Origin: Coriobacteriaceae bacterium
Lineage (GTDB): Bacteria; Actinomycetota; Coriobacteriia; Coriobacteriales; QAMH01
Direction of reading: 5' to 3'
Assembly: GCA_004553405.1 (NCBI GenBank)
Contig: SFLO01000005.1
Span: 1-14,091, forward strand
Length of the DNA: 14,091 nucleotides
Position numbers and translations under genes: made by a program. Under the pieces are notes generated by a model. The model searched no databases, was not told the origin of the DNA, and was given only the letters and a program-made list of their open reading frames with translations. Shown piece by piece: positions 1 to 13,985 of the stretch. Each line of letters begins with the position of its first letter. Position 1 is the first letter of the stretch.

Positions 1-1
1 C

Positions 2-673
2 AAGCGCGCCCAAGAGATCATCGGCCGCGAGTTCAGCGTGCCGGGCCTGCTCCAGGTGGCCCTCACGCACCCCAGCTATGTCAAGCACACCAAGAGCGGG
101 GACAACTACGAGCGCCTCGAGTTCTTGGGCGACAGCATCCTCGGCGCGATCATCGCCGAGGAGGTCTTCGGGATGTTTCCCGACCTCGAGGAAGGCGGCC
201 TCACCCGCATCAAGGTGAGCTTGGTGAGCGGTGCGAGCCTCTCGCAGGTGTGCGGCGAGCTCGGCCTGGGCGAGTGCATAATCTTTGGGGATTCGGAGGC
301 CGGCACGCAGGGCCGCGGCCTGCACAGCGCCCTCGAAAACGTCTACGAGGCCATCGTCGCCGCGCTCTACCTCGACGGCGGCATCGACATCGCCCGCGAG
401 TGGGTGATGAGGACGCTCGGGCCCCACATCAGCCGCGACATCGCCACCGAGCCAGAAAGCCCCAAGAGCTCGCTGCAGGAGTACCTGCAGGCGCGCCGCC
501 GCAAGCCCACCTACCGGATCACGGACATCATCGGGCCCCCTCACGACCGCGTCTTCCAAGCGGCCGTCTACTGCGGCGACGAGCTCATCGGCACCGGAGA
601 GGGCCACAGCAAGAAGGCCGCGGAGGCTGCCGCCGCGCAGCAGGCGCTCGAGACCCTGGGGGTCTCCAAGTAG
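2..673 (+). CDS. rnc: Ribonuclease III (5'-truncated by window edge)
   Basis: Endoribonuclease that cuts double-stranded RNA, for example in rRNA precursor maturation; it acts in the cytoplasm as a dimer. The reading frame is open from base 2, so the start codon and roughly the first ten residues lie outside the window; 223 residues are visible. The GTG at 38 is internal, because the frame upstream still reads like the family (...EIIGREF before LLQVALTHPSY). The catalytic-domain signature ERLEFLGDS is at about 110-136, holding two metal ligands (Glu at 119-121, Asp at 131-133). The second motif reads ENVYEAIVAALYLDGG. Its Glu (347-349) is kept, but the usual Asp three residues before it is Asn (338-340). 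A double-stranded RNA-binding domain follows (SSLQEYLQARRR ... GEGHSKKAAEAAAAQQAL). It is the first gene of the visible rnc-smc-ftsY-ffh block, an order common in Gram-positive bacteria. The identification is secure. Confidence 0.96.
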   Translation, partial: KRAQEIIGREFSVPGLLQVALTHPSYVKHTKSGDNYERLEFLGDSILGAIIAEEVFGMFPDLEEGGLTRIKVSLVSGASLSQVCGELGLGECIIFGDSEAGTQGRGLHSALENVYEAIVAALYLDGGIDIAREWVMRTLGPHISRDIATEPESPKSSLQEYLQARRRKPTYRITDIIGPPHDRVFQAAVYCGDELIGTGEGHSKKAAEAAAAQQALETLGVSK

Positions 674-690
674 GGCCGCGCAAGGCCCCG

Positions 691-699
691 TGATAAAAT
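691..699 (+). promoter_or_regulatory. Possible extended -10 promoter for smc
   Basis: TGATAAAAT, an extended -10 (TG-N-TAAAAT, five of six matches to TATAAT), stands out in the short GC-rich rnc-smc gap. There is no recognisable -35 seventeen bases upstream. A small hairpin (GGGCC at 673-677, GGCCC at 684-688) right after the rnc stop could slow transcription. smc may therefore have its own start as well as read-through from rnc. This is inference from sequence only. Confidence 0.33.
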
Positions 700-724
700 C
701 AATCAGTTATGCCCACCTGCAGAC

Positions 725-730
725 AAAGGG
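725..730 (+). promoter_or_regulatory. Ribosome binding site that decides the smc start
   Basis: AAAGGG lies 6 nt before the GTG at 737 but directly abuts the in-frame TTG at 731. Spacing favours GTG 737. So does the resulting N-terminus, MYLKSLVLKGFKSFAD, which matches the usual MYLK start of bacterial SMC proteins. Confidence 0.65.
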
Positions 731-736
731 TTGCAC

Positions 737-3700
737 GTGTATCTCAAATCGCTAGTCCTCAAGGGGTTCAAGTCCTTCGCAGACCGCTCCGTGCTCAAGC
801 TCGAGCCGGGGATGACCGTTGTCGTGGGCCCCAACGGCTCGGGCAAGTCGAACGTCAGCGACGCCGTGCTGTGGGTGCTCGGCGAGCAGAGTGCCAAGCA
901 GCTGCGCGGCCAGGCGATGGAAGACGTCATCTTCGCCGGCAGCAGCGCCCGCCAGGCCGTGAGCCTAGCCGAGGTCGACCTCGTGCTCGACAACAGCGAC
1001 GGCACGCTTCCGCTCGACTTCAACGAGGTCGTCATCACCCGCCGCATGTACCGCAGCGGCGACAGCGAGTACCTCATCAACGGCAGCCCCAGCCGCCTGA
1101 TGGACATCCTCGACGTCCTCAACGACTCCGGCCTGGGACGCGACACCCACTCCATCATCTCCCAGGGCGCCCTGCAGTCGCTGCTGCAGTCGCGCCCGGA
1201 GGACCGCCGCGTGCTGGTGGAGGAGGCTGCGGGCATCCTCAAACACAAGAAACGCAAAGAGCGCGCCGCCAAGAAGCTCCGCAACATGGACGCAGAGCTC
1301 GAGCGCGTCAACGACATCGCCGCAGAGATCGACCGCCAGCTCAAGCCCCTCGAGCGCCAGGCCAGCCGTGCCAAGCAGTACGAGCAGCTCGCCGGCGAGC
1401 TCAAGGAGCTCAACCTCACGCTGGCCGTTGACGACCTGCGCAGGCTCCAGGGCGAGTGGGAGGCCCTCGAGCTCAGGGAGCGCGAGGCAGACGCCGGCGT
1501 GGAGCTGGTCCGCTACCGCCTCGACGAGCGCAAGCGCGAGCTCGAGAAGCTCCAGCGCCTGCTCGAGGAGAAGGGCCTGTTCGTGGGCGACCTCGCCGAG
1601 CAGCGCCGCCGCTGCCAGATGGTCCTCGCCCAGCTCGACAGCGGCATGCTGCTGCTCGAGGAGAAGGGCCGCAACATGGTCACGCGCCTCTCCGAGCTGC
1701 GCCAGTCCATCCACCAGAGCGGCAAGGGACTCGCAGAGGCCCGCGAGCGCCTGGAGCGCGCCGGGGCCGAGCACGTTGAGGCAGAGGCCTCCCTCAAGGC
1801 CGTCCAAGACCAGGTCTCGCAGGCCAGCATCGCCGTCGAGGCGACGCGCAAGCAGCGCAAGGAGGCAGATATCGAGCTCGCCCGCCTCAACGGCGCCCTG
1901 CGCAACCGCGAAAAGCAGCACGACGAGCTCACCCTGCAGGCGCTCAAGGCGGCCGAGAGCCTCTCCACCGCCGATGTCGAGGACGGCCTCCTCGCCCGCC
2001 GCAGCCAGCAGATCGACGACAGCTTCGGCGCGACCCAGGGCACGCTGGGCGCGCGTCGCGCCCGCATCGAGGAGCTCGAGGAGCGCCTCGCCCAGCTGCA
2101 GCAGGAGTCCCTGCTCGCAAAGAGCGACATCGACAAGCGCGTGAGGCTCGTCGACGATGCCCGCCGCGCACTCAACGACAAGCACGATGCGGTCTCCCAG
2201 CTCAAGGCTGAGCTGCGAGGCCTCGAGGAGGTCGATCGCGCCTTCGACGACGCCAGCCCCCTGCTGAGCTGGGCCGTCTCGCAGCGCATTGAGGGAGACG
2301 GCATCCTCGCTCCCCTGAGCGAGCTCATCACCGCACCCGCCGAACTCGAGCACCTCGTCGAGCTCTTGCTGGGCGAGGACCTCTTCGGCCTTGCCACGCA
2401 AGACGCCCAAAGCGCCCTCAAGCTCGTCGAGCGCATGGCCGCGGGCAAGCTCGAGGGCGGCGAGCTCACCCTCGTCCCCGCCGCCGGGCACGGCGCGGGG
2501 GCAGGCGAGCCGGGAGTGGGCACCCGCCTGCTCGACTCCCTCAGCTTCGACCCGGCCTTCGCCCACGTGGCCGAGGTTCTGCTCGGCGACGTCTACCTCG
2601 TCGACAGCCTCGCCCAGGCCCTCGAGGCCTCGCGCGGGGGCGCTTGCGGCGTGCGCTACGCCACGCGCGAGGGGGCGGTGCTGTGGCCCAGCGGCAAGAT
2701 CTGCTTCGGCGCGCCCTCTGCAGACACCGAGGGCGTCTTGGCACGCAAGCGCCGCATCGCCGCGCTGCGAGACGAGCTGCCCCTTGCAGAGGCCGCAGTC
2801 GAGGCCGCACTTGAGGAACTCGCCCAGGCAGAGGACCGCCTGCAGGTGGCCCAGGCAGACGACTTCGAGCTCTCGCAGTCCATCGCCCAACTCACCGGCG
2901 AGGCAGACTCCCTGCGCGAGGAGGCCGGCCGCCTCGAGGCGAGCATCACCGGCCTCATGCAGGAGCGCAGCGAGATAGCCCTGCGCCGCGAACGCGTGGC
3001 CCAAGAAACCGAGCAGACCAGGGCCTGCATCCAGGAGCTCGAGCAGCGCAAGGTGGAGCTCGCCCAGGAGAGGTCCCAGCTCGAGGAGGAGGCCGCCCAG
3101 GCAAAGGAGCGCCGCGGCGTGCTCTTCCAGGAGGAAAACGAATCCTCCGCCGCCATCCAGAAGCTCCAAGTCGAGCTCGCCACCGTGCGCGAGAGGGAGC
3201 GCCACCTGCGCGCCACCTGCGAGTCGAGCACCCGCACCATCGAGAAGCTGGAAAGCCAGCTCGAGGTCTCGCACCAGACCGAGCGCAACCTCGAGATTCT
3301 GCGCTTGAGGGTCGAGCCCCTCTACCAGGTCTTCACGGAGCTGCGCGACATCGTCCGCGAGAAGGCCGAGATGCTCAGGGACCGCGCCCAGATCGAGCAG
3401 GCGGGCCAGGGCGACCTGCGCGACACCATCGAGGAGGCCCGCAAGGCGGCCCAAGAGCAGCAAGAGCAGCTCGACGCCGCCAGCGAGGGCCTGGTCCAGG
3501 TGCGCATCGAGAAGTCCAAGCTCGAGGTGCGCGTCGAGCAGGCCATCAAGGTCATCACCGAGGAGAACGGCGTCTTGCTCGACATCGCGCTCGAGATCCC
3601 CGCGCCGGAAGACAGGGTCGAGCTCGAGCAGCGCCGCGACAGGCTCGCCAAGCGCATCAAGGGCCTGGGCAACGTCAACCCCGTCGCCGTGGAGGAGTAC

Positions 3701-4324
3701 CGCAAGCTCAAGGAGAGGCGCGACTTCATCGCCATCCAGGTCGAGGACCTCGAGGGCGCGGCCAAGGCGCTCGACCGCATCGTCGCCGCCATCGACCGCA
3801 AGATGCGCAACCGCTTCATGGAGACCTTCAACCAGGTCAACGCCAACTTCCAAGACATCTTCCAGGCGCTGTTCCCCGGCGGCCAGGGCCATCTCGAGCT
3901 CACCGACCCGGAGAGCCCCGAGACCACCGGCGTCGAGGTCCACGCCCAGCCCCGCGGCAAGGCGGTGCGCAAACAGAGCCTGCTGTCCGGTGGCGAGCAG
4001 AGCCTCGTGAGCCTCGCGCTGCTCTTCGCGGTGTACAGGGTCAACAACACGCCCTTCTACATCCTCGACGAGGTGGAGGCCGCGCTCGACGACACCAACC
4101 TGCGCAGGCTGCTGTCCTACCTCGACACCATCCGCGGCGGCACGCAGATCATCATGATCAGCCACCAGCGCCGCACCATGGAGATGGCGGACCTTCTCTA
4201 CGGCGTCTCCATGCGCAGCGACGGTGTGTCCAAGCTCGTCAGCCAGAAGCTCGACCAGGCCATACGCAGCGTTGGCGGGTCGGGCGGCGCCAGGGACGTG
4301 GAGTCCTTCACCGGCGCCCAGTAG
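737..4324 (+). CDS. smc: Chromosome partition/condensin protein SMC
   Basis: SMC is the ATP-driven DNA-loop-forming subunit of bacterial condensin; with ScpA and ScpB (not in this window) it organises and segregates the chromosome. The protein is 1195 aa, the normal bacterial length. The N-terminal head has Walker A GPNGSGKSN at 31-39. A first long coiled coil rich in Glu, Lys, Leu, Gln and Arg runs to about 510. A globular hinge follows at about 515-655, beginning near GDGILAPLSELI. The returning coil runs from about 670 to 1000. The C-terminal head has the ABC signature LSGGEQ at 1083-1088, Walker B ILDE at 1109-1112 (Asp 1111, Glu 1112) and the SHQ switch His. All ATPase elements are intact. 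The GTG at 737 is preferred over the TTG at 731. It sits 63 nt after rnc and 29 nt before ftsY, probably co-transcribed. Codon use is strongly C/G-ending. Confidence 0.97.
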   Translation: MYLKSLVLKGFKSFADRSVLKLEPGMTVVVGPNGSGKSNVSDAVLWVLGEQSAKQLRGQAMEDVIFAGSSARQAVSLAEVDLVLDNSDGTLPLDFNEVVITRRMYRSGDSEYLINGSPSRLMDILDVLNDSGLGRDTHSIISQGALQSLLQSRPEDRRVLVEEAAGILKHKKRKERAAKKLRNMDAELERVNDIAAEIDRQLKPLERQASRAKQYEQLAGELKELNLTLAVDDLRRLQGEWEALELREREADAGVELVRYRLDERKRELEKLQRLLEEKGLFVGDLAEQRRRCQMVLAQLDSGMLLLEEKGRNMVTRLSELRQSIHQSGKGLAEARERLERAGAEHVEAEASLKAVQDQVSQASIAVEATRKQRKEADIELARLNGALRNREKQHDELTLQALKAAESLSTADVEDGLLARRSQQIDDSFGATQGTLGARRARIEELEERLAQLQQESLLAKSDIDKRVRLVDDARRALNDKHDAVSQLKAELRGLEEVDRAFDDASPLLSWAVSQRIEGDGILAPLSELITAPAELEHLVELLLGEDLFGLATQDAQSALKLVERMAAGKLEGGELTLVPAAGHGAGAGEPGVGTRLLDSLSFDPAFAHVAEVLLGDVYLVDSLAQALEASRGGACGVRYATREGAVLWPSGKICFGAPSADTEGVLARKRRIAALRDELPLAEAAVEAALEELAQAEDRLQVAQADDFELSQSIAQLTGEADSLREEAGRLEASITGLMQERSEIALRRERVAQETEQTRACIQELEQRKVELAQERSQLEEEAAQAKERRGVLFQEENESSAAIQKLQVELATVRERERHLRATCESSTRTIEKLESQLEVSHQTERNLEILRLRVEPLYQVFTELRDIVREKAEMLRDRAQIEQAGQGDLRDTIEEARKAAQEQQEQLDAASEGLVQVRIEKSKLEVRVEQAIKVITEENGVLLDIALEIPAPEDRVELEQRRDRLAKRIKGLGNVNPVAVEEYRKLKERRDFIAIQVEDLEGAAKALDRIVAAIDRKMRNRFMETFNQVNANFQDIFQALFPGGQGHLELTDPESPETTGVEVHAQPRGKAVRKQSLLSGGEQSLVSLALLFAVYRVNNTPFYILDEVEAALDDTNLRRLLSYLDTIRGGTQIIMISHQRRTMEMADLLYGVSMRSDGVSKLVSQKLDQAIRSVGGSGGARDVESFTGAQ

Positions 4325-4353
4325 TGTCACAGCGATAGGGGAGGAGGATCCCT

Positions 4354-5262
4354 ATGTCATTGAGAGAGCGCCTCGCGCGGGCCCGCCAGAGCCTGACCGA
4401 GAGCATGAACATCCTGTTCAAGCGCGGACCGGAAGTCGACGACGACTTCTGGGACGAGCTCGAGGAGACCCTGATCCTCGCAGACATGGGCGCCCAGGCA
4501 GCGTCAGAGATCGTGGAGCGCCTGAGGGACACCGCGACGCGCAAGGCCCTGCCAGACGCCTACGCGGTCTTGGACCTGCTGGCCGAGACCATCGAGGGCC
4601 TGTTCGCCCAGCCCGAGCAAGACCTCTTCGAGGAAAGCCCCGTCTGCGTGCTCTTTGTGGGCATCAACGGCGCCGGCAAGACGACCACCGTGGGAAAGCT
4701 GGCCAACCAGGGCCTCGCCCAGGGGCGCAGGGCACTCATCGGCAGCGCGGACACCTTCCGCGCAGCGGCGATCGAGCAGCTCGACGTCTGGGGAGAGCGC
4801 AGCGGCGTCGAGGTGGTCAAGCGCGAGCGCGGCGCAGACCCGGCATCCGTGTGCTACGACGTCCTAGAGCGCGCAGAGGCCCTGGGCAGCGACCTCGTGC
4901 TCATCGACACCTCCGGCCGCCTGCACACCAGCGCCGACCTCATGCGCGAGCTCGAGAAGGTCGTCTCCGTCACCCGCAAGCGCGCGGCCATGCCCGTGCG
5001 CGTCGTGCTCGTCATCGACGCCACCACCGGCCAAAACGGCCTGCAGCAGGCGCGTGAGTTCGATCGCGCGCTGGGCTTGGACGGCGTGGTCATGACCAAG
5101 ATGGACGGCACCGCCAAGGGCGGCATCGCCGTCGCCGTCTCGCACGAGCTGCAGCTGCCCATCCTGCGCATGGGCGTGGGCGAGTCGATCGAGGACCTCC
5201 AGGCCTTCGACGCGCATGCCTTCGCAGAGGCGCTCTTCGGCGAGATGCGCAAGGCCCAGTAA
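4354..5262 (+). CDS. ftsY: Signal recognition particle receptor FtsY
   Basis: FtsY is the membrane-associated GTPase that receives SRP-bound ribosomes and hands nascent membrane proteins to the Sec translocon. The 302-aa protein is the compact Gram-positive form: the NG domain with only a short amphipathic N-terminus (SLRERLARARQSL) in place of the long acidic A domain of E. coli. The N domain helices come first. The GTPase motifs follow: G1 GINGAGKT at 103-110, DTFRAAAIEQL, DTSGR, TKMDG at 248-252 and GVGE at 274-277. The start ATG follows an excellent ribosome binding site (GGGGAGGAGG) in the 29-nt gap after smc. Its partner Ffh is the next gene, so both SRP GTPases are likely made together. 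Nothing is missing. Confidence 0.97.
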   Translation: MSLRERLARARQSLTESMNILFKRGPEVDDDFWDELEETLILADMGAQAASEIVERLRDTATRKALPDAYAVLDLLAETIEGLFAQPEQDLFEESPVCVLFVGINGAGKTTTVGKLANQGLAQGRRALIGSADTFRAAAIEQLDVWGERSGVEVVKRERGADPASVCYDVLERAEALGSDLVLIDTSGRLHTSADLMRELEKVVSVTRKRAAMPVRVVLVIDATTGQNGLQQAREFDRALGLDGVVMTKMDGTAKGGIAVAVSHELQLPILRMGVGESIEDLQAFDAHAFAEALFGEMRKAQ

Positions 5263-5291
5263 GAACCCCCCCCGACACACGAGGAAGACCA

Positions 5292-6722
5292 ATGTTCGAG
5301 AACCTTTCCGCAAAGCTCCAGGGCGTCTTCGGCGGCCTCAAGAGCAAGGGCCGCCTGACAGAGGCCGACATCGACGCCGCCATGAAGGAGATCCGCATGG
5401 CGCTGCTCGAGGCAGACGTCAACTACAAGGTGGTGAAGGGCTTCGTCAAGCGCACCAAGGAGCGCTGCCTCGCGGCCGACGTCATGGACAGCCTGACCCC
5501 GGCCCAAAACGTCGTCAAGGTCGTCAACGACGAGCTCACCGCCCTGTTGGGCGGCGAGACCGTGCGCCTCGACTTCGGCAGCCGCATCCCCGGCGTCATC
5601 ATGATGGTGGGCCTGCAGGGCTCCGGCAAGACGACCGCGAGCGCCAAGCTCGCCTACCGCCTCACCAAGATGGGCCACACCCCGCTGCTCGCCGCCTGCG
5701 ACGTCTACCGCCCGGCGGCTGCAGACCAGCTGCAGACCCTCGGCGACGAGCAGGGCGTGCGCGTCTTCCGCGGCGACGGCGCAGACCCGGTGGCCATCGC
5801 CAAGGGCGCTGTCCGCGACGCCATCGACAACCTGCGCGACGTCGTCATCGTCGACACCGCCGGCCGCCTGCATGTGGACGAGGCCATGATGGAGGAGGCC
5901 GTGGCGATCCGCGACGCGGTCAAGCCCGACTACATCTTCTTGGTGGTCGACGCCATGACCGGCCAGGACGCCGTCACCACGGCAGCGGCCTTTGCAGAGA
6001 AGGTCGACTTCGACGGGGTCATCATGTCGAAGATGGACGGCGATGCCCGCGGCGGCGGCGCGCTCTCCATCCGCGAGGTCACCGGCAAGCCCATCGCCTT
6101 CATCAGCGCGGGAGAGAAGCCGGACTCCCTCGAGGTCTTCCACCCCAGCCGCATGGCAGGGCGCATCTTGGGCATGGGCGACGTCCTCTCGGTCATCGAG
6201 AAGGCCGTCGAGGTCCAAGAGCAGCAGATCGCCGCAGAGGAGGCAGAGCGCCTCGCCAAGGCCGAGTTCACCTTCGAGGACTTCTACACCGTCATCGGCC
6301 AGACCCGCAAGATGGGCGGCCTGAACAAGCTCGTCGAGGCCCTGCCCGGCGGCGCCAAGGCCCAAGCCGAGGGCCGCATCGACGAAGGCGAGCTCGACCG
6401 CGTCGAGGCCATCATCAACTCCATGACCCCCGAGGAGCGCCAGAAGCCCCAGGTCCTCAACGGCAGCAGGCGCGCGCGCATCGCCCGCGGCTGCGGCCTC
6501 AGCGTCACCGAGGTCAACCAGGTCATCAAGAAGTTCAACGAGACCCGCAAGATGGTCAAGAAGCTCACGGCCAAGGCGAAGCAGGCAGAGCAGATGACCA
6601 AGGGCAAGAAGGGCAAGAAGCGCAAGGGCCTCTTCGGGCGCAACATGGGCGTGCCCGGCATGGAGGGCGTGGACATGAAGGCGCTCGCCAAGATGATGAA
6701 GGACGGCGGGCTGGACAAGTAA
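5292..6722 (+). CDS. ffh: Signal recognition particle protein Ffh (SRP54)
   Basis: Ffh is the SRP subunit that binds 4.5S RNA and hydrophobic signal sequences and forms a GTPase pair with FtsY. It is 476 aa, typical length. The NG domain shows G1 GLQGSGKT at 107-114, DVYRPAAADQL, DTAGR, SKMDGDARGG and a GMGD closing motif. The M domain begins near EFTFEDFYTVIGQTRKMGG and contains the RNA-binding helix-turn-helix SRRARIARGCGLSVTEVN. A Lys/Arg-rich stretch (KGKKGKKRKG) and a Met-containing tail follow. Oddity: the finger loop between the first M-domain helices (about 342-375, ...NKLVEALPGGAKAQ...) contains no methionine, whereas this loop is usually Met-rich. The start has GAGGAAG upstream. The 29-nt gap to ftsY contains a run of eight C. 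The usual downstream neighbour rpsP is absent; instead a hairpin and an Fe-S ATPase gene follow. Confidence 0.97.
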   Translation: MFENLSAKLQGVFGGLKSKGRLTEADIDAAMKEIRMALLEADVNYKVVKGFVKRTKERCLAADVMDSLTPAQNVVKVVNDELTALLGGETVRLDFGSRIPGVIMMVGLQGSGKTTASAKLAYRLTKMGHTPLLAACDVYRPAAADQLQTLGDEQGVRVFRGDGADPVAIAKGAVRDAIDNLRDVVIVDTAGRLHVDEAMMEEAVAIRDAVKPDYIFLVVDAMTGQDAVTTAAAFAEKVDFDGVIMSKMDGDARGGGALSIREVTGKPIAFISAGEKPDSLEVFHPSRMAGRILGMGDVLSVIEKAVEVQEQQIAAEEAERLAKAEFTFEDFYTVIGQTRKMGGLNKLVEALPGGAKAQAEGRIDEGELDRVEAIINSMTPEERQKPQVLNGSRRARIARGCGLSVTEVNQVIKKFNETRKMVKKLTAKAKQAEQMTKGKKGKKRKGLFGRNMGVPGMEGVDMKALAKMMKDGGLDK

Positions 6723-6732
6723 TCGCGTCTTC

Positions 6733-6798
6733 AGGGCCCCTGGCGCAGGGTGGGACGGCCATAAGTCACCGTCTTGTCACCCAAGCGCCAGGGGCTTT
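6733..6798 (+). terminator. Long nested hairpin after ffh, probable terminator
   Basis: Three stems nest inside one another. The outer arms GCCCCTGGCGC (6736-6746) and GCGCCAGGGGC (6785-6795) are perfect over 11 bp, extended by two G-U pairs and an A-U pair. The middle stem is GGGTG (6748-6752) with CACCC (6778-6782). The inner stem is GACGG (6754-6758) with CCGTC (6769-6773). The tail is only weakly T-rich (TTTGGGTT). Termination of the smc-ftsY-ffh transcript is the simplest role. The unusual length and nesting also allow a processed or regulatory RNA element. It lacks the GGAAGGAAGC-like tetraloop region expected of SRP RNA. Confidence 0.6.
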
Positions 6799-6828
6799 GG
6801 GTTATAAGGGACGAACGAGACCGAGTGT

Positions 6829-6847
6829 CGGCGGGCCTTGCCCGCCG
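6829..6847 (+). promoter_or_regulatory. Short hairpin in the mrp leader
   Basis: CGGCGGG (6829-6835) pairs with CCCGCCG (6841-6847) around a tiny CCTTG loop, followed by TTT. It ends 11 nt before the GGAGG ribosome binding site (6859-6863) of the Fe-S ATPase gene. It could be an attenuator, an mRNA stabiliser or a second weak terminator. A -10-like TATAAG at 6803-6808 lies between the two hairpins, but no -35 is correctly spaced (TTGTCA at 6774-6779 is 23 nt away). Confidence 0.4.
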
Positions 6848-6870
6848 TTTCGAACATTGGAGGAAACATC

Positions 6871-7695
6871 ATGGCTGGATGCAGTGGAAGCTGCGGCTCC
6901 TGCGGGGACTCTTCCTGCGGCGAGCGCAAGGAGCCCCAGGCCCTCAAGCAGCACGAGGGCACCAAGATCGACAAGATCATCGCAATCGCAAGCGGCAAGG
7001 GCGGCGTGGGCAAGTCCCTCACCACCGCTCTGCTGGCCTGCGAACTCAACCGCCGCGGCAAGAAGGTCGGCATCCTCGACGGCGACATCACGGGTCCGTC
7101 CATTCCCCGCTCCTTCGGCGTGCACAGCGCCCCGCAGGTTGACGAGGATGGCATGCTCCTGCCCGCCGTCACCAAGACCGGCATCAAGATCGTCTCTACC
7201 AACATGCTCACCGCAGACGAGGCGACGCCCTTCCTGTGGCGCGGCCCCGTCCTCAACGGCGTGCTGACCCAGTTCTACAGCGACATCAACTGGGGCGAGC
7301 TCGACTACCTGCTCATCGACATGCCCCCGGGCACCGGCGACATCCCCATGACCGTCTTCCAGCAGTTCCCCATCGCGGGCGCCATCGTGGTCTCCTCGCC
7401 GCAGGTCCTGGTGAACATGATCGTCGAGAAGTGCATCCGCATGTGCGCCAGCATGAAGGTCCCCGTTTTGGGCCTCGTCGAGAACATGTCCTACTACGAG
7501 TGCCCCAACTGCAGCGAGAAGCACGAGATCTTCGGCAAGTCCGAAGTCGAGTACATCGCCAAGGAGAAGCACATCGATGCCTGGGCACGCATCCCCATGG
7601 AGCCCCAGGTCACCGCCAAGGTCGACGCCGGCAACGTCGAGGACATCGACAACAGCTGGTACGCCGGCATCGCAGACAAGCTCGAGTCCCTCTAG
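6871..7695 (+). CDS. mrp: Mrp/Nbp35-family iron-sulfur cluster carrier ATPase
   Basis: A cytoplasmic P-loop ATPase (ApbC/Mrp/Nbp35 family, ParA/MinD fold) that holds a [4Fe-4S] cluster and passes it to apoproteins. The protein has 274 aa. The N-terminus is a Cys cluster with Cys 4, 8, 11 and 16, as in Nbp35-type and many anaerobe Mrp proteins. The deviant Walker A SGKGGVGKS is at 41-49. A Walker B-like LLIDMPPGTGD motif follows. The conserved CPNC pair is at Cys 211 and 214, which in the family bridges a cluster across the dimer. The ATG at 6871 has GGAGG 7 nt upstream and is chosen over an in-frame TTG at 6838 inside the hairpin. It is followed after 9 nt by a trigger-factor-like gene and, further on, by a molybdoenzyme operon needing at least five [4Fe-4S] clusters. 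A supply role for that operon is plausible but unproven. Confidence 0.93.
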   Translation: MAGCSGSCGSCGDSSCGERKEPQALKQHEGTKIDKIIAIASGKGGVGKSLTTALLACELNRRGKKVGILDGDITGPSIPRSFGVHSAPQVDEDGMLLPAVTKTGIKIVSTNMLTADEATPFLWRGPVLNGVLTQFYSDINWGELDYLLIDMPPGTGDIPMTVFQQFPIAGAIVVSSPQVLVNMIVEKCIRMCASMKVPVLGLVENMSYYECPNCSEKHEIFGKSEVEYIAKEKHIDAWARIPMEPQVTAKVDAGNVEDIDNSWYAGIADKLESL

Positions 7696-7704
7696 GCAGG
7701 CGCC

Positions 7705-8700
7705 ATGGCAGACACACCCAAGCGCAAGCTCCCGCCCGTCCCCGAATACCACCTCGACAGCTACGAGCCCGTCAGCATCACCCGCCCCGTCTATGTCGTG
7801 ACAGACGAGATCCTCGAGGACCGCATCAAGGCCATCATGGAGGGCGCCTCCAAGGACTACGTCCCCACCAAGCGCCAGGTCGCCGGCCCCAAGGACACCA
7901 TCGAGATCTCCATCCACGTCGACAAGGACGGCGAGGAGGTGAAGGGCCTGTGCAGCGACAAGCAGGTCTACTCGCTGGGCCAGGGTTACATGCCCATCGG
8001 CTTCGACCGCAACGTCGTGGGCATGAAGGTGGGCGAGTCCAAGTCCTTCGACTTCGACGCCCCCGACTTCGACGACCCAGACGCCAAGGAGCGCTCATTC
8101 CACGCCGAGGTCGCGGTGCTCGCCGTCTTGAAGGAGGCCGAGCCCGAGCTCACCGACGAGTGGGTCTCCAAGCACATCATGCTGTGCAAGGACGTTGAGA
8201 CCTTCCGCAACCGCACTCGCAAACAGCTCGAGCAGGAGGCCGCCAAGGCGGCCGAGGGCGAGCTCATGGACCGCGCGGTCCGCGAGCTGGCCACCCGCTT
8301 CAAGGGCAGCATCGACGACGTCTGGTACGAGTCCACGCGCGACGACATCCTGCGCACCTACGAGGAGCAGGCGAAAGCCCAGGGCACCGACCTCGACGGC
8401 CTGCTGGCCGCCCAGGGCATGGACAAGCAGCAGTTCAACATGATGCTGATGCTGCAGGTCCGCGAGATGCTCGTCCAGGGATTCGTGCTCGACGCCTGGG
8501 CGCGCCACTACGGGCTCGAGGCCACGGAGGACGACGTCCTCTACGTCGCCAACCTCATGTCCAACAACCGCGGCAAGCTCATGCTCGACAACCTGCGCGA
8601 GGCAGGCGAGGAAGAGCAGCTCAAGGGCCTCGAGATGGCGGCAAGGCGCTACGTGGCCAACAAGGACCTCCTCGAGAAGGCCCATATCACAGAGGAGTAG
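7705..8700 (+). CDS. Trigger-factor-like chaperone without ribosome-binding domain
   Basis: The 331-aa protein matches trigger factor from its inter-domain linker onward. Residues about 12-45 (VPEYHLDSYEPVSITRP ... VTDEILEDRI) correspond to the linker. Residues about 50-145 form an FKBP-type prolyl isomerase domain (DTIEISIHVDKDGEEVKG, then YMPIGFDRNVVGMKVGE with Gly 99 and Phe 100). From about 150 (LTDEWVSKHI) to the end it is the helical SurA-like substrate-binding domain. The N-terminal ribosome-binding domain and its Gly-Phe-Arg signature are absent. There is no room for them, because the mrp stop is only 9 nt upstream. No signal peptide is seen, so it is probably a cytoplasmic folding factor or isomerase, perhaps acting after synthesis on specific clients. 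A full-length tig is expected elsewhere in the genome. Coupling to mrp suggests shared regulation. Family assignment is firm; the client is unknown. Confidence 0.85.
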   Translation: MADTPKRKLPPVPEYHLDSYEPVSITRPVYVVTDEILEDRIKAIMEGASKDYVPTKRQVAGPKDTIEISIHVDKDGEEVKGLCSDKQVYSLGQGYMPIGFDRNVVGMKVGESKSFDFDAPDFDDPDAKERSFHAEVAVLAVLKEAEPELTDEWVSKHIMLCKDVETFRNRTRKQLEQEAAKAAEGELMDRAVRELATRFKGSIDDVWYESTRDDILRTYEEQAKAQGTDLDGLLAAQGMDKQQFNMMLMLQVREMLVQGFVLDAWARHYGLEATEDDVLYVANLMSNNRGKLMLDNLREAGEEEQLKGLEMAARRYVANKDLLEKAHITEE

Positions 8701-9067: not shown

Positions 9068-9074
9068 AAGGAGG
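9068..9074 (+). promoter_or_regulatory. Ribosome binding site that decides the molybdoenzyme start
   Basis: A perfect AAGGAGG sits 5 nt before GTG 9080. The in-frame ATG at 9047 and GTG at 8876 have nothing comparable. The choice matters because it determines that the catalytic subunit begins MTDRKLEVLQMEG, with no Tat or other export signal. Confidence 0.75.
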
Positions 9075-9079
9075 AGCAA

Positions 9080-12000
9080 GTGACAGACAGGAAACTCGAA
9101 GTCCTTCAGATGGAGGGTGTCGAGGTCAGGAAAACCTGTTGCTACTTCTGCCACCACAACTGCGGCGTTCTCGCCTACGTTAAGGATGGCGAGCTGCTGT
9201 ACACCGAGGGCGATCCCAACACGTCCAACGCCGGTGGTCTGTGCGCACGTGGCAACCAGGCAATGACTTTCTACGATGCCCCGACTCGCATCAACTACCC
9301 GCTCAAGCGCGCGGGCAAGAAGGGCGAGAACAAGTGGGAGCGCGTCTCTTGGGACCAGGCTCTCACCGAGATTGCCGACAAGATCAACACCATCAAGGCA
9401 GAGAGCGGCGCAGAGGCCGTGGCTGCCATCGCCGGTACCCTTCGTACCGACGACTGGGCACGCCGCCGCTTCATGAACCTCTTCGGCACCCCCAACGTGT
9501 GCCACAACTCCCTGCTCTGCTGGGTTCCCACCTTCATGGTGGAGACCGCAGTGGCCGGCTGGTCTCCCTTCGAGACCGACCTGGGCGGTTCCAAGTGCGT
9601 CATCCTGTGGGGTTTCAACCCCGGTGCCGCCAACCTGCCCGCAGCCCACGGCTACTTCGATCTTCAGAGGCAGACCGGCATGAAGATCATCGTCGTCGAC
9701 CCCCGCTACACCGAGACCGCAGCTCATGCAGACCTGTGGCTCCCGCTGCGCCCGGGTTCCGACACCGCTCTGGCGCTGGCCATGATCAACGTCATCTGCA
9801 ACGAGTACATCTACGATATGGACTTCGTTGACGAGTGGTGCATCGGCTTCGACGAGCTGGTCGACCACATCGACCAGTACGATCCCGAGTGGGCCGCCGA
9901 GAAGACCTGGCTCGACCCCGAGCTGATCCGCCAGGCCGCCCGCATGTACGCCACCAACACCCCCGGCAACATCCAGTGGGGCTGCACGTGGGACCAGCTG
10001 GGCAAGACCTCTGGCGCCGGCTCCCATGCCCGCCAGATCCTGCGCGCCATCACCGGCAACCTCGACGTTCCCGGTGGCGACGGCATGCCCGGTCCCGCTG
10101 CCTACGTGACCGACTACGAGCTCGAGTTCAACGAGGAGCTCCCCGAGGAGGTCAAGTCCAAGCAGATCGGCGCAGACAAGTTCCCGCTGACCACCTTCCC
10201 CGGCTATGACCGCCTGGCTGGCATCTCCAAGGAGAAGTGGGGCAAGGCATTCACCGCCGAGTGGATGTGCGAGGCCCACGGCCCGTCCATCTTCAAGGCC
10301 ATTCTCACCGGTGTGCCCTACAAGATCCGCGCCCTCTTCGTCTCCGGCTCCAACCCGCTGAGCTCCTACGGCGACGCCAAGATGACCTACGAGGCAACCA
10401 AGCAGGTCGAGTTCCTGGTCGTGCTCGAGTACGTCATGACCCCCACCGCCCTGCAGGCAGACTACGTCCTGCCCGTTGCCGGTGCTATCGAGCGCCCCGT
10501 CATCCACACCAACTACGGTGTCACGGACTCCATCGTCTGCCACCAGCGCGGCGTCGAGCCCGCCTACGAGCGCAAGACCGACTACAACATCTGGCGTGAC
10601 CTCGGCCTGGCATGCGGCCAGGATGAGAAGAAGTTCTGGCCCAACGAGCGCCTCGAGGACGAGTTCTTCGATGTTCTCAAGCCGCTGAACCTTCCCATCA
10701 CCAGCTACGACGACTTCGTCGAGCGCTTCCGCATGTACTACCCGCCTCTGCAGCAGGCCAAGCACCTCAAGCGCGGCTACTTCTGCACTGCATCCGGCAA
10801 GGTTGAGCTCAAGTCCTCCGTCCTGGAGGAGCTGGGTCTTCCCGGCCTGCCCGTCTACCTCGAGCCCTCTGAGAACGAGATCGAGCATCCCGAGGTTGCC
10901 GAGGAGTTCCCCCTGGTGCTCACCACCGGCGGCGGCTTCATGCCCTACTGCCATTCCGAGCACTTCAACAACCCCATCTTCCGCTTCGTTATCCCCGATC
11001 CCCACTTCACCATCCACCCGGATACCGCCAAGAAGCTGGGCATCAAGGCCAACGACTGGTGCTGGATCGAGACTCGCCGAGGCCGCATCAAGCAGCGCGC
11101 AAACGTCGAGCCCAGCCTGGATCCCCGCGTGATCTACACCCAGCGCGGCTGGTGGTTCCCCGAGCGCTCCCATGAGGGTTTCCAGCCCTTCGGCTGCATG
11201 GAGTCCAACACCAACATGCTGACCTCCGTCGACGACGAGGACTGCTGCCCCATGACCGGCTGCTGGGCCAACCGCGGCCTGCTCTGCAAGGTCTACAAGT
11301 GCACCGAGATGGACCACGAGTTCACCTATGAGGACTCCCTGTACTCCATCCCCGGCAACCGTCGCGAGCCCGGCATCGACTGGGATTACGTGAAGAACCC
11401 GCCCCGCGCGCTTCCCTTCAACGAGCCCATCTTCGCCCAGCCCGACTTCGAGGTTCCCGCTGGCCTCGAGTGGGACTACAAGACCCGCAAGGCATGGAAC
11501 GCCGAGAAGACCCAGTACTTCGACGCTGCCTCTGGCTGGATGATCGGCAAGGACAACGGCGCCTACTACCAGTACGGCACCGGCTACCGCTACCTCGCTC
11601 TCGACGGCGTGAACTACCTGGTCGACGAGGCCAACGACGTCTTCTACGACTTCAGCGGCGCCCAGGTTGCCACTCCTGCAGCACCTGTCGAGGTCCCCGA
11701 GGGCCTGAAGTACGACTACTTCCGCCAGAAGGTCGTCGAGCCCAGCACCGGCTTCTACCTGGATGCCAGCGGCTGGTTGATCGACGAGGCCACCAGCTCC
11801 TATTACGAGCGCTACACCCTGCGCAAGTACGACTCTGCCCTCAACGTCCTGGTCGACCAGGAGACCGGCAAGTTCTACAGCATGCAGGATCCCGCTCAGG
11901 AGGTCACCCTGGACGAGTACACCCTCGCCCGCGCTGAGAAGATCAAGAACCTGCCCTATGGCTACACCTACGATGCCAACTCCGGCTGGGTCATCAGCAA

Positions 12001-12178
12001 CGGTGCCTACTACGAGCTCATGACCATGCGCAAGTACGACGCCGGCCTCAACCTGCTGGTTGATGGCAAGACCGGCGCTTACTACAGCATGCAGGATCCC
12101 ACCCTGCGCGTTAACGCCGACGGCACCCCCTATGTGGAGGCCGCCGAGGAGGCTGTCGAGGAAGGAGAGGAGGCCTAA
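9080..12178 (+). CDS. Molybdopterin oxidoreductase catalytic subunit with C-terminal repeat extension
   Basis: A DMSO-reductase-superfamily enzyme, 1032 aa, expected to carry bis-MGD molybdenum (or tungsten) and one [4Fe-4S] cluster. The cluster motif is Cys 21, 24, 28 and 55, followed by Arg 57. Cys 147 in SLLCW sits where the metal-ligating Cys is in acetylene hydratase (Cys 141). The conserved course WERVSWDQAL, RRFMNLFGTPN, ADLWLPLRPGSD, ADYVLP, SGKVEL and IETRRGRIK up to YKC at about 741 follows the acetylene hydratase-like group by my recollection of that family. Acetylene hydratase itself ends near this point. Its catalytic Asp 13 is His 25 here, so acetylene hydration is unlikely. Residues 742-1032 are extra: a linker, three aromatic-rich repeats (793 to about 1020) and an acidic tail. 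There is no Tat signal, so it should stay cytoplasmic. Gut Coriobacteriia catechol dehydroxylases belong to the same broad superfamily. The substrate cannot be read from the sequence. Confidence 0.9.
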   Translation: MTDRKLEVLQMEGVEVRKTCCYFCHHNCGVLAYVKDGELLYTEGDPNTSNAGGLCARGNQAMTFYDAPTRINYPLKRAGKKGENKWERVSWDQALTEIADKINTIKAESGAEAVAAIAGTLRTDDWARRRFMNLFGTPNVCHNSLLCWVPTFMVETAVAGWSPFETDLGGSKCVILWGFNPGAANLPAAHGYFDLQRQTGMKIIVVDPRYTETAAHADLWLPLRPGSDTALALAMINVICNEYIYDMDFVDEWCIGFDELVDHIDQYDPEWAAEKTWLDPELIRQAARMYATNTPGNIQWGCTWDQLGKTSGAGSHARQILRAITGNLDVPGGDGMPGPAAYVTDYELEFNEELPEEVKSKQIGADKFPLTTFPGYDRLAGISKEKWGKAFTAEWMCEAHGPSIFKAILTGVPYKIRALFVSGSNPLSSYGDAKMTYEATKQVEFLVVLEYVMTPTALQADYVLPVAGAIERPVIHTNYGVTDSIVCHQRGVEPAYERKTDYNIWRDLGLACGQDEKKFWPNERLEDEFFDVLKPLNLPITSYDDFVERFRMYYPPLQQAKHLKRGYFCTASGKVELKSSVLEELGLPGLPVYLEPSENEIEHPEVAEEFPLVLTTGGGFMPYCHSEHFNNPIFRFVIPDPHFTIHPDTAKKLGIKANDWCWIETRRGRIKQRANVEPSLDPRVIYTQRGWWFPERSHEGFQPFGCMESNTNMLTSVDDEDCCPMTGCWANRGLLCKVYKCTEMDHEFTYEDSLYSIPGNRREPGIDWDYVKNPPRALPFNEPIFAQPDFEVPAGLEWDYKTRKAWNAEKTQYFDAASGWMIGKDNGAYYQYGTGYRYLALDGVNYLVDEANDVFYDFSGAQVATPAAPVEVPEGLKYDYFRQKVVEPSTGFYLDASGWLIDEATSSYYERYTLRKYDSALNVLVDQETGKFYSMQDPAQEVTLDEYTLARAEKIKNLPYGYTYDANSGWVISNGAYYELMTMRKYDAGLNLLVDGKTGAYYSMQDPTLRVNADGTPYVEAAEEAVEEGEEA
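11456..12139 (+). repeat. Three tandem aromatic-rich repeats inside the molybdoenzyme gene
   Basis: The encoded units start at about residues 793, 873 and 959. Each carries a Ser-Gly-Trp core (818, 897, 968), then a Tyr-Tyr pair, an Arg-Tyr or Lys-Tyr-Asp step, LNxLVD or NYLVD, and a closing FY or YYSMQDP. Repeat 3 lacks roughly ten residues at its front. Repeats 2 and 3 are also similar in DNA: CTACAGCATGCAGGATCCC occurs at 11875-11893 and 12082-12100, and TGCGCAAGTACGAC at 11820-11833 and 12027-12040, both pairs exactly 207 nt apart. This points to duplication of a unit of about 69 codons. The pattern loosely recalls OCRE or choline-binding-type aromatic repeats, but I cannot assign it to a known family. 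Confidence 0.85.
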
Positions 12179-12179
12179 C

Positions 12180-12740
12180 ATGACCCGCTACGCAATGATC
12201 ATGGACACGCGTCGCTGCATTGGCTGCCACTCCTGCACCATCGCATGCCGCACCTGGAACGAGCTTCCCGTCGACATCATCTACAACCCGGTTGTCTCCG
12301 AAGGTGCTGTTGGCGAGTGGCCCAACGTCCACCTGAACTTCACCCCGCTGATCTGCATGCACTGCGCAAAGCCCGCATGCGTTCCCGCCTGCCCCACCGG
12401 CGCATCCCGCCAGGACGCAGACGGCATCGTCTGGGTTGAGCCCACTCAGTGCATGGGCTGCAAGGTGTGCGCCAACGCATGCCCCTACGGCGCCCGCGAC
12501 TACAACAAGAAGGAGGGCTGGATCCGCAAGTGCACCTTCTGCAAGGACCGCACCCGCGCCGGCTTCCAGACCCACTGCGTGCAGACCTGCCATCAGAAGG
12601 CTCGTATCTTCGGCGACCTCGACGATCCGAACTCCGAGGCAGCAAAGCTCGTCAACAGCAACTACTGCGAGCGTATCTTCCCCGAGCTGGGTACTGACCC
12701 GCAGATCTACTACATCCGAGACACTGGAAGGAGGTCCTAA
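12180..12740 (+). CDS. Four-cluster ferredoxin-like electron transfer subunit
   Basis: The 186-aa B subunit of a complex iron-sulfur molybdoenzyme (DmsB/PsrB/NrfC type), carrying electrons between the membrane subunit and the molybdenum subunit. Four Cys groups are complete: 13/16/19/23, 59/62/67/71, 91/94/97/101 and 118/121/133/137. These are sufficient for four [4Fe-4S] clusters, since the third group has four Cys and no Trp substitution. The ATG lies 1 nt after the catalytic subunit's stop, with GGAGAGGAGG in the preceding coding end, so translation is coupled. An in-frame upstream ATG at 12060 would add 40 residues overlapping the previous gene and is rejected. No signal peptide; it should sit with the catalytic subunit on the cytoplasmic face. 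Confidence 0.95.
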   Translation: MTRYAMIMDTRRCIGCHSCTIACRTWNELPVDIIYNPVVSEGAVGEWPNVHLNFTPLICMHCAKPACVPACPTGASRQDADGIVWVEPTQCMGCKVCANACPYGARDYNKKEGWIRKCTFCKDRTRAGFQTHCVQTCHQKARIFGDLDDPNSEAAKLVNSNYCERIFPELGTDPQIYYIRDTGRRS

Positions 12741-13891
12741 TGAAGCAGTTTTGGGGTTGGGAACTTGCAACCTACCTGTATCTGGGCGGCCTCGGTGGCG
12801 GCATGCTGTGCTTTGCAGCCGTCATCGGCCTGTTCCTGGAGCCGTCCCTTGTGACCTCCGGTTCCCTGGTCTGGGTCCTGCTTTGGGCCATCATCATCAT
12901 CTGCATCGGCGTTGCCCTGCTGGTTTACGAGCTGGGACAGCCAATCGTATTCGAGCGAGCCTTCGTCACTAAGACCTCCGTCATCAAGTGGGGCGCTGTG
13001 GTGCTGGTTCTCTCCTGCGTCTTCGCAGCTCTCTTCCTCATCTGGGAGATCACCTGGTTCAACTTCCTGCCGTGCATCCCCTATGAGGGCTTTGCTAAGC
13101 TCTGCCTGGGCCTGGCTGGCTTCTTCGGCATTTGCGTCATGGTCTACACTGGCACTATGCTGAGCTCCCTGAAGGCCAAGGCCTTCTGGAACACCCCGGC
13201 ACTGCCCATGCTGTTCACCATCTCCGCACTGTCCACCGGTGCCTGCATGGACGCACTGCTCTTCGGTCACTTCCCCCTGCCTGCCGAGTGGCTCCAGGCC
13301 GGCGCCTTCCTGGGCACCGCCGAGTGGACTGCCAACATGCATGAGGTTGTCGAGTTCCTGCACGTGGCCGACCTGGTCCTGGCCATCGCCGAGATCATCT
13401 GCCTGCTGCTCTACGTCCTGCTGATGTTCTGCGCACCCGCTTCCACCGACGCCAAGAAGGTTGCGGACAAGTGGGTTCGCGGCTCTTGGGCACCCATCTT
13501 CTGGGGCGGCATGCTCATCCTCGGCCTGGTCGTCCCCGTCTGCTTCAACGCCTACGGCCTTGCCATGGGCGGCAGCGTCCTGGGCGAGTACGTCGCACCC
13601 ATCATGGTGCTGTGCTCCGGCCTCCTGTTCCGCTTCATGATCATCTACTCCGCAGACCGCAAGCTCTATGCAGGTGAGGAGCGCTATTACAACCAGGCAG
13701 GCGACATCCATGATGAGTTCTGCACCTACTGGAAGCCCGGCGCCACCTACTTCGAGGTTGTCAACGCTGCTGACTTCGATGACATCAGCGTCCCCGAGGC
13801 CGATCCCAAGACCCCCATCGCTACCAAGCTGAAGTGGGCTCTGAACATGGGCGAGGGCACCCCCGAGCCCAAGCCGGCCTATCCGCGCTAG
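12740..13891 (+). CDS. NrfD/PsrC-family membrane subunit
   Basis: A polytopic membrane protein of 383 aa that anchors the complex and exchanges electrons with the quinone pool. Eight membrane segments are visible at about 10-33, 41-64, 81-104, 117-141, 152-175, 203-231, 250-274 and 283-304. After segment 2 comes YELGQP, resembling the DLGxP element common in the family, with Glu for Asp. Residues 305-383 form an unusually long soluble tail with Tyr, Asp and Pro (DRKLYAGEERYYNQAG to PEPKPAYPR). With an even number of segments and positive residues after them, this tail is probably cytoplasmic. The start codon overlaps the previous stop (TAATG), with AAGGAGG (12728-12734) 5 nt before it. It is the last gene of the operon, followed by a strong hairpin. 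Confidence 0.92.
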   Translation: MKQFWGWELATYLYLGGLGGGMLCFAAVIGLFLEPSLVTSGSLVWVLLWAIIIICIGVALLVYELGQPIVFERAFVTKTSVIKWGAVVLVLSCVFAALFLIWEITWFNFLPCIPYEGFAKLCLGLAGFFGICVMVYTGTMLSSLKAKAFWNTPALPMLFTISALSTGACMDALLFGHFPLPAEWLQAGAFLGTAEWTANMHEVVEFLHVADLVLAIAEIICLLLYVLLMFCAPASTDAKKVADKWVRGSWAPIFWGGMLILGLVVPVCFNAYGLAMGGSVLGEYVAPIMVLCSGLLFRFMIIYSADRKLYAGEERYYNQAGDIHDEFCTYWKPGATYFEVVNAADFDDISVPEADPKTPIATKLKWALNMGEGTPEPKPAYPR

Positions 13892-13951: not shown

Positions 13952-13985
13952 GAGCGCCCCTCCTCTCACACGAGGAGGGGCGCTC
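13952..13985 (+). terminator. Strong terminator hairpin of the molybdoenzyme operon
   Basis: GAGCGCCCCTCCTC (13952-13965) and GAGGAGGGGCGCTC (13972-13985) form a perfect 14-bp stem around TCACAC, followed by TGCATTCAT. The T-content after the stem is modest, but the stem is the strongest in the window and sits right after the last gene of the operon. It could also serve a convergent gene. Confidence 0.8.

Follow-up and report, generated by a model that had tools for sequence, protein, structure and literature searches.

The operon and the extension of subunit A

The window analysed here is the whole 14,091-nt stretch of contig SFLO01000005.1 from a Coriobacteriaceae bacterium, and coordinates are window positions unless another locus is named. 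Its forward strand carries consecutive genes for a molybdoenzyme catalytic subunit (subunit A), a ferredoxin-like subunit B and an NrfD-type membrane subunit C. Subunit A continues past its acetylene-hydratase-like core for 291 residues (742-1032), forming a linker, three aromatic modules and an acidic tail. From profile and structure comparisons, the modules are classed here as OCRE-type (PF17780). The features are listed below.

9080..12178, + strand: catalytic subunit A, 1032 aa; GTG start, TAA stop at 12176-12178
9080..11302, + strand: acetylene-hydratase-like core of subunit A, with Molybdop_Fe4S4, Molybdopterin and Molydop_binding domains
11303..11449, + strand: linker from the core to module 1, residues 742-790; higher omega than core or modules among relatives
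11450..11659, + strand: OCRE-type module 1, residues 791-860; W, Y, Y, Y, Y at the RBM5 proline-contact positions
11690..11890, + strand: OCRE-type module 2, residues 871-937; AlphaFold2 (AF2) model pLDDT 92.9
11927..12097, + strand: OCRE-type module 3, residues 950-1006; degenerate N-terminal part
12098..12175, + strand: acidic C-terminal tail, residues 1007-1032; pLDDT <50 at residues 1021-1032
12180..12740, + strand: subunit B, 186 aa, [4Fe-4S] electron-transfer protein of NrfC/DmsB type
12740..13891, + strand: subunit C, 383 aa, NrfD/PsrC-type membrane subunit; its C-terminal extension ends GTPEPKPAYPR

The GTG of subunit A follows GGAGGA (9070-9075) at a distance of 4 bases, and a homologous MTDRKLE start occurs in its relatives P0004 and P0020. 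Residues 19-741 aligned with residues 4-727 of acetylene hydratase 2E7Z in phmmer (E 1.3e-119). This agrees with the first-pass annotation of this DNA, in which the superfamily match ran to about residue 741 and was followed by about 291 residues. Its start for the extension, 11304, lies one base out of frame and reads into stops; the true start is 11303. The division into a linker, three repeats and an acidic tail was recovered with the boundaries listed above. The proposed repeat pattern held in part: SGW, YY and LVD were present in modules 1, 2 and 3, whereas KYD and (F/Y)YSMQDP were found in modules 2 and 3 only. In module 3, the N-terminal part is mostly missing.

The extension is confirmed as real. 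A module hidden Markov model (HMM) built from 17 other single-module loci, with the window excluded, scored it at 126.5 bits. When 2000 shuffled extensions were searched with the same HMM, 1872 were scored, the highest reaching 11.9 bits. Aromatic residues account for 46 of the 291 positions. Aromatic autocorrelation at 8 residues was not significant in the window, with 8 pairs vs 5.6 expected and 901 of 5000 shuffles reaching 8. In the AF2 model of the whole chain, 10-residue blocks across 741-1020 scored between 75 and 94, with a pTM of 0.78.

OCRE assignment and distribution of the modules

Assignment to OCRE was based on family-wide scores, the profile match to RBM5/RBM10 and structural ranking. 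Of 48 related modules, 46 matched PF17780 at E<=0.1, the lowest E-value being 7.2e-15, and modules of relatives reached 41.2 bits. Against the PDB, a module profile ranked the RBM5 OCRE domain first (E 3.5e-4); phmmer of the extension alone gave no result there. The AF2 model of a module (pLDDT 93) had RBM10 and RBM5 OCRE as its top two structural matches, both of them weak (TM 0.45 and 0.41). The first-pass annotation had allowed for a match to a common, already named C-terminal domain of molybdopterin oxidoreductases. A named domain was indeed matched, and it comes from splicing factors rather than from molybdoenzyme C-termini.

OCRE is known from splicing regulators of eukaryotes, human splicing factors among them, where it binds proline-rich peptides. 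According to the accessible part of PMC5127646, exposed tyrosines of the negatively charged RBM5 domain hold a polyproline helix flanked by arginines, with an affinity of ~mM for one motif and 20-40 µM for a tail of several. The contact positions (Tyr470, 479, 486, 488 and 495) were mapped by hand from the profile alignment and the residue names given there. Counting His as aromatic, the first four positions were aromatic in 48, 47, 45 and 48 of 48 bacterial modules, respectively, and the Tyr495 position in only 8. With Tyr, Trp and Phe alone, at least 4 of the 5 positions were aromatic in 44 of 48 modules and all 5 in 7 of 48. Module 1 of the window has all 5, and modules 2 and 3 have 3 each. 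The modules are acidic, with a median charge of -8 (range -13 to 0). They resemble RBM5/RBM10 OCRE in this acidity, in their aromatic octamer-like strands, in their SG-aromatic and YYD motifs, and in having most proline-contact positions aromatic. They differ in their bacterial occurrence, length of ~69 residues, extra conserved parts at both ends, tandem arrangement, fusion to a molybdoenzyme and mostly non-aromatic Tyr495 position. RHS/YD repeat proteins also have tyrosine-rich repeats and weak OCRE scores; unlike the modules, they lack the SGW-YYD-LVD module and score lower.

Relatives were collected by a genome contig scan, and the best 80 of 114 (L001-L080) were examined with a module HMM threshold of >15 bits. 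Modules were found in 61 of 65 Coriobacteriia-side loci: one in 17, two in 36, three in 6 and four in 2, the counts of L004, L005 and L047 being lower bounds as these loci run off their contigs. The class is not given in the record titles of three of these loci: L004 and L010 were counted on this side by the tree, and L022, which is not in the tree, was counted there too. Among loci without an HMM match, L003 and L067 stop short of the extension, the module of L058 lies in another frame (the next one) beyond masked bases, and L062 has an intact frame and a B gene without modules. Modules were therefore present in 62 of 63 decidable Coriobacteriia-side loci, as against none of the 15 from other phyla (Bacillota, Chloroflexota and a Pelobacter-labelled genome). 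This distribution and the confident module model bear out the expectation, raised at first pass, of repeats confined to a restricted clade and folding as a separate domain. All 15 loci of other phyla end soon after an NRGLLCKV-type motif (11 of them 10-18 residues past it, the remaining 4 likewise), which argues that the extension is not part of the cofactor-binding cap. The protein P0017 gave seven module matches (6-7 modules), the weakest at 7 bits. Genomes carrying the enzyme family belong to genera including Gordonibacter, Adlercreutzia, Ellagibacter and Paraeggerthella.

A core tree of 63 sequences, drawn from the window, six proteins and 56 of the 80 loci, was made by a quick method and rooted by us on 13 loci of other phyla. 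Presence of modules required 2 changes on it vs a mean of 12.9 for shuffled labels, and 0 of 500 shuffles needed as few. We read this pattern as a probable single origin of the modules on the Coriobacteriia branch, after which their number changed and L062 lost them. The L062 frame (5890-8268 of that locus) keeps a linker start SIPGS and an EGGEE end, as if modules had been deleted. Of 14 pairs of relatives tried, with species shared between pairs, 13 had unsaturated dS. Across these 13, omega spanned 0-0.30 in modules, 0.03-0.23 in the core and 0-1.06 in the linker, with medians (taken by hand) of 0.10, 0.09 and 0.18, respectively. By this estimate, the modules are under purifying selection about as strict as that on the enzyme core.

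In class Coriobacteriia, PF17780 matched 30 of 296 genomes, 26 above cut-off, and three of the 30 (G017, G021 and G125) were RHS/YD look-alikes. The module profile matched 29 of 296 genomes, with all matches in frames of 868-1204 aa, the size range of the subunit A enzyme; the one further frame read was the 917-aa frame of G225 (L110, 2179-4926, - strand). It encodes a different molybdoenzyme with one C-terminal OCRE module. Over 94 residues, its tail shares 60% identity with the last module and linker of its own genome's subunit A. Identity is also 60% with L011 and L050 and does not exceed 51% with the next best, a pattern which suggests that this module was copied from subunit A. In an Actinomycetota sample, 6 of 396 genomes matched PF17780. 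The three above cut-off (G001, G005 and G082) were Coriobacteriia; two of the others were RHS/YD proteins, and L103 was not resolved. In the Desulfosporosinus phylum, 4 of 299 genomes matched, three above cut-off (24.7-28.4 bits). Of the four loci, three were read (L104, L106 and L107, the fourth being L105). Their small proteins resemble membrane proteins or lipoproteins, have a single YxEQTGRY..WYVV stretch and look unrelated to the molybdoenzyme. The phylum of the Pelobacter-labelled genome gave 4 of 198, all RHS/YD-like, one of which passed the cut-off when neighbours were added. No PF17780 match was found in 14 control genomes in any of the searches.

The OCRE family itself is already known, and one database record is already named for OCRE. 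No publication pairing OCRE with molybdopterin, or dealing with a bacterial OCRE protein, was found in a search that left most subscription journals outside. The available portions of PMC8409303, PMC5127646 and PMC7400221 are not about a bacterial OCRE protein, and those of PMC12771579 hold no passages with domain terms. What is new is the bacterial molybdoenzyme setting, the clade-wide conservation and the module on a second enzyme.

Enzyme core, neighbouring genes and candidate ligands

The core resembles acetylene hydratase of Syntrophotalea (Pelobacter) acetylenica in fold (TM 0.91 on the target, 34% identity to 2E7Z), Fe-S Cys motif and metal-ligand Cys. Cys141 of acetylene hydratase aligns with C147 of subunit A, which is invariant across a 75-sequence alignment (A2). 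Unlike acetylene hydratase, subunit A is followed by B and C genes, has 291 extra residues and carries His25 at the position of Asp13, this His being nearly invariant in A2. Since an Asp13 to Ala exchange abolishes acetylene hydratase activity, as stated in the accessible part of PMC12096430, subunit A is probably not an acetylene hydratase. In one enrichment, acetylene consumption has been ascribed to acetylene-hydratase-like genes of a Coriobacteriales genome, with biochemical proof asked for (PMC7858054, partial text). Catechol dehydroxylases are bis-molybdopterin guanine dinucleotide (bis-MGD) enzymes, described in the available part of PMC7028382 as closest to acetylene hydratase. By description, those of Eggerthella and Gordonibacter (Dadh, Hcdh, Cadh and Dodh) share with subunit A the bis-MGD cofactor and the bacterial class.

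The E. lenta catechol dehydroxylases have twin-arginine translocation (Tat) signals and are partnered by a 4Fe-4S protein and a membrane anchor (PMC7028382, same portion). In contrast, a twin-arginine-like motif within 60 residues before the Cys motif was found in 0 of 79 loci of the subunit A family, Sec signals being outside this test. A and B are therefore probably cytoplasmic. The consecutive genes for A, a ferredoxin-like B and an NrfD-type C recall NrfD/PsrC-type complexes (polysulfide reductase, NrfCD), from which the present system differs in lacking this motif on A and in the probable cytoplasmic placement of A and B. In other phyla, too, A is followed by B and C genes at 14 of the 15 loci; the contig of the fifteenth, L079, stops after B.

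Among L001-L080, a second acetylene-hydratase-like molybdoenzyme often lies 3' of A-B-C. The gene before it is usually a CCG gene in Coriobacteriia and, in other phyla, a radical-SAM gene with an HMPTM zinc ribbon. Genes of the DUF2064 family also recur downstream of subunit C. In the window, an inverted repeat with perfectly matching 14-base arms, a 6-base loop and no T run lies 3' of the operon at 13952-13985; it is not among the terminators listed by a terminator scan of the window. The + strand of 1-8700, 5' of the operon, encodes RNase III, SMC, a Mrp/NUBPL-type ATPase, a protein with a trigger-factor C-terminal domain and two SRP54-type GTPases, which we take to be FtsY and Ffh.

Tails of subunit C were considered as ligands of the modules. 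In the window, C has a C-terminal extension of ~51 residues (13736-13888). L001 and L002, of the window's clade, also have longer C tails, these without a proline motif, and most other relatives lack a longer tail. PP, PxPKP or PxPxP occurred in the last 45 residues of 4 of 74 tails (73 of the 80 loci plus the window; 14 from other phyla), namely those of L040, L051, L060 and the window. The usual ending, PGExxY...FxxxW plus a few residues, is common to loci with and without modules. Docking to the membrane partner through a proline-rich NrfD tail, a form of the membrane docking suggested at first pass, is thus unsupported as a general rule and rejected as such; the window's own C tail may still act as a ligand.

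Other operon proteins were searched with a PPP or PPxxRGR regular expression. It found no match in 50 CCG frames (14 CCG sequences from 13 loci were also read by eye), 1 in 75 B frames (L061, a stop-to-stop frame with its start not checked) and 1 in 57 second-molybdoenzyme frames (L059). Tails of the second molybdoenzyme, longer in many Eggerthellaceae, were set aside as they do not track module number by eye. P0004 (residues ~1080-1646) and P0020 (residues ~1080-1877) have 7 and 10 repeats, respectively, behind three OCRE modules. These repeats hold RGR, LP(S/A)N and P(I/V)YER, with PPxxRGR in 4 and 6 of them, respectively. Both proteins are close relatives of the window protein, which lacks the repeats. 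The repeats may be a cis ligand of the modules. When one 59-aa P0004-type unit was searched against 296 class genomes, 22 matched at E<=0.1, the lowest E-value being 0.011; these matches were taken as chance, with loci unread. A protein search with the repeat tail returned P0004 and P0020 only, among similar-length proteins and 7990 candidates sharing most words.

Proposed function of the module array

Subunit A would be a bis-MGD oxidoreductase with Cys ligation, located in the cytoplasm, belonging to the acetylene-hydratase/catechol-dehydroxylase branch and partnered by ferredoxin-like B and NrfD-type membrane subunit C. Each module would form a small beta sheet displaying a cluster of aromatic side chains amid an acidic surround. 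A single module would most likely grip an extended Pro/Arg-rich partner peptide weakly, and several modules would give avidity. We infer that the array tethers the oxidoreductase, on the cytoplasmic side, to a partner or to copies of itself, an explanation that we judge reasonably probable as a whole. Docking to another protein is the best reading among the roles offered at first pass.

Several observations weigh against this tethering explanation. No general proline-rich ligand was found among the operon NrfD tails, CCG proteins and B subunits, and the P0004 and P0020 tails are net acidic overall (-32 and -4), which is unhelpful to the cis-ligand idea. The window's own extension falls slightly below the PF17780 cut-off (24.6 vs 24.7 bits), and the small unrelated proteins of the Desulfosporosinus phylum score 23.5-28.4 bits. 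PF17780 scores this close to the cut-off are not telling. The want of a partner in the operon would also suit modules that act inside the complex, packing on A, B or C or dimerising, and so stabilising the assembly with no separate partner. The confident AF2 model of the extension within the whole chain and the near confinement of modules to one enzyme point the same way. We nevertheless think an intra-complex role rather unlikely: A, B and C occur together without modules in 14 of 15 loci of other phyla, module number ranges from 1 to 4 and reaches 6-7 in P0017, and a module is also found on a different molybdoenzyme.

The likeness to OCRE might instead be convergence of tyrosine-rich repeats, with modules that bind a surface such as carbohydrate or cell wall. 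The OCRE model scores RHS/YD proteins at 20.5-23.6 bits, one of them passing the cut-off with neighbours; small proteins of another phylum reach 28.4 bits, and a Salmonella Rhs protein has a weak OCRE match of 9.8e-3 in the available part of PMC7400221. Set against these, modules score up to 41.2 bits and OCRE structures rank top in the structural comparison, while no wall-binding family was among the extension matches at E<=1 and all 79 loci lack a twin-arginine-like motif. Convergence is accordingly judged quite improbable, and surface binding, also raised at first pass, unlikely. For capture of aromatic substrates or feeding of the active site, the last of the earlier suggestions, no support was found beyond aromatic content and the link of the branch to catechol dehydroxylases (PMC7028382, in part). 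Other phyla keep the enzyme without the array, and the conserved aromatics coincide with OCRE peptide-contact positions; we give this role very little credence.

Beyond tethering of a single enzyme, we tentatively raise the possibility of a Coriobacteriia OCRE system, in which arrays would bind Pro/Arg-rich repeats of partners or of their own tails, as in P0004 and P0020, and form multivalent assemblies. If true, such assemblies would be a bacterial parallel to splicing factors holding small nuclear ribonucleoprotein (snRNP) tails. The array marks an uncharacterised enzyme family in Coriobacteriia genera. Because it is conserved, under selection and portable, and sits on a bacterial enzyme of respiratory type, it offers a simple system for the general function of the OCRE fold. 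Our findings suggest that some Coriobacteriia molybdoenzymes are recruited to partners through multivalent peptide recognition, and a metabolic enzyme may here be docked in a manner so far known from eukaryotes.

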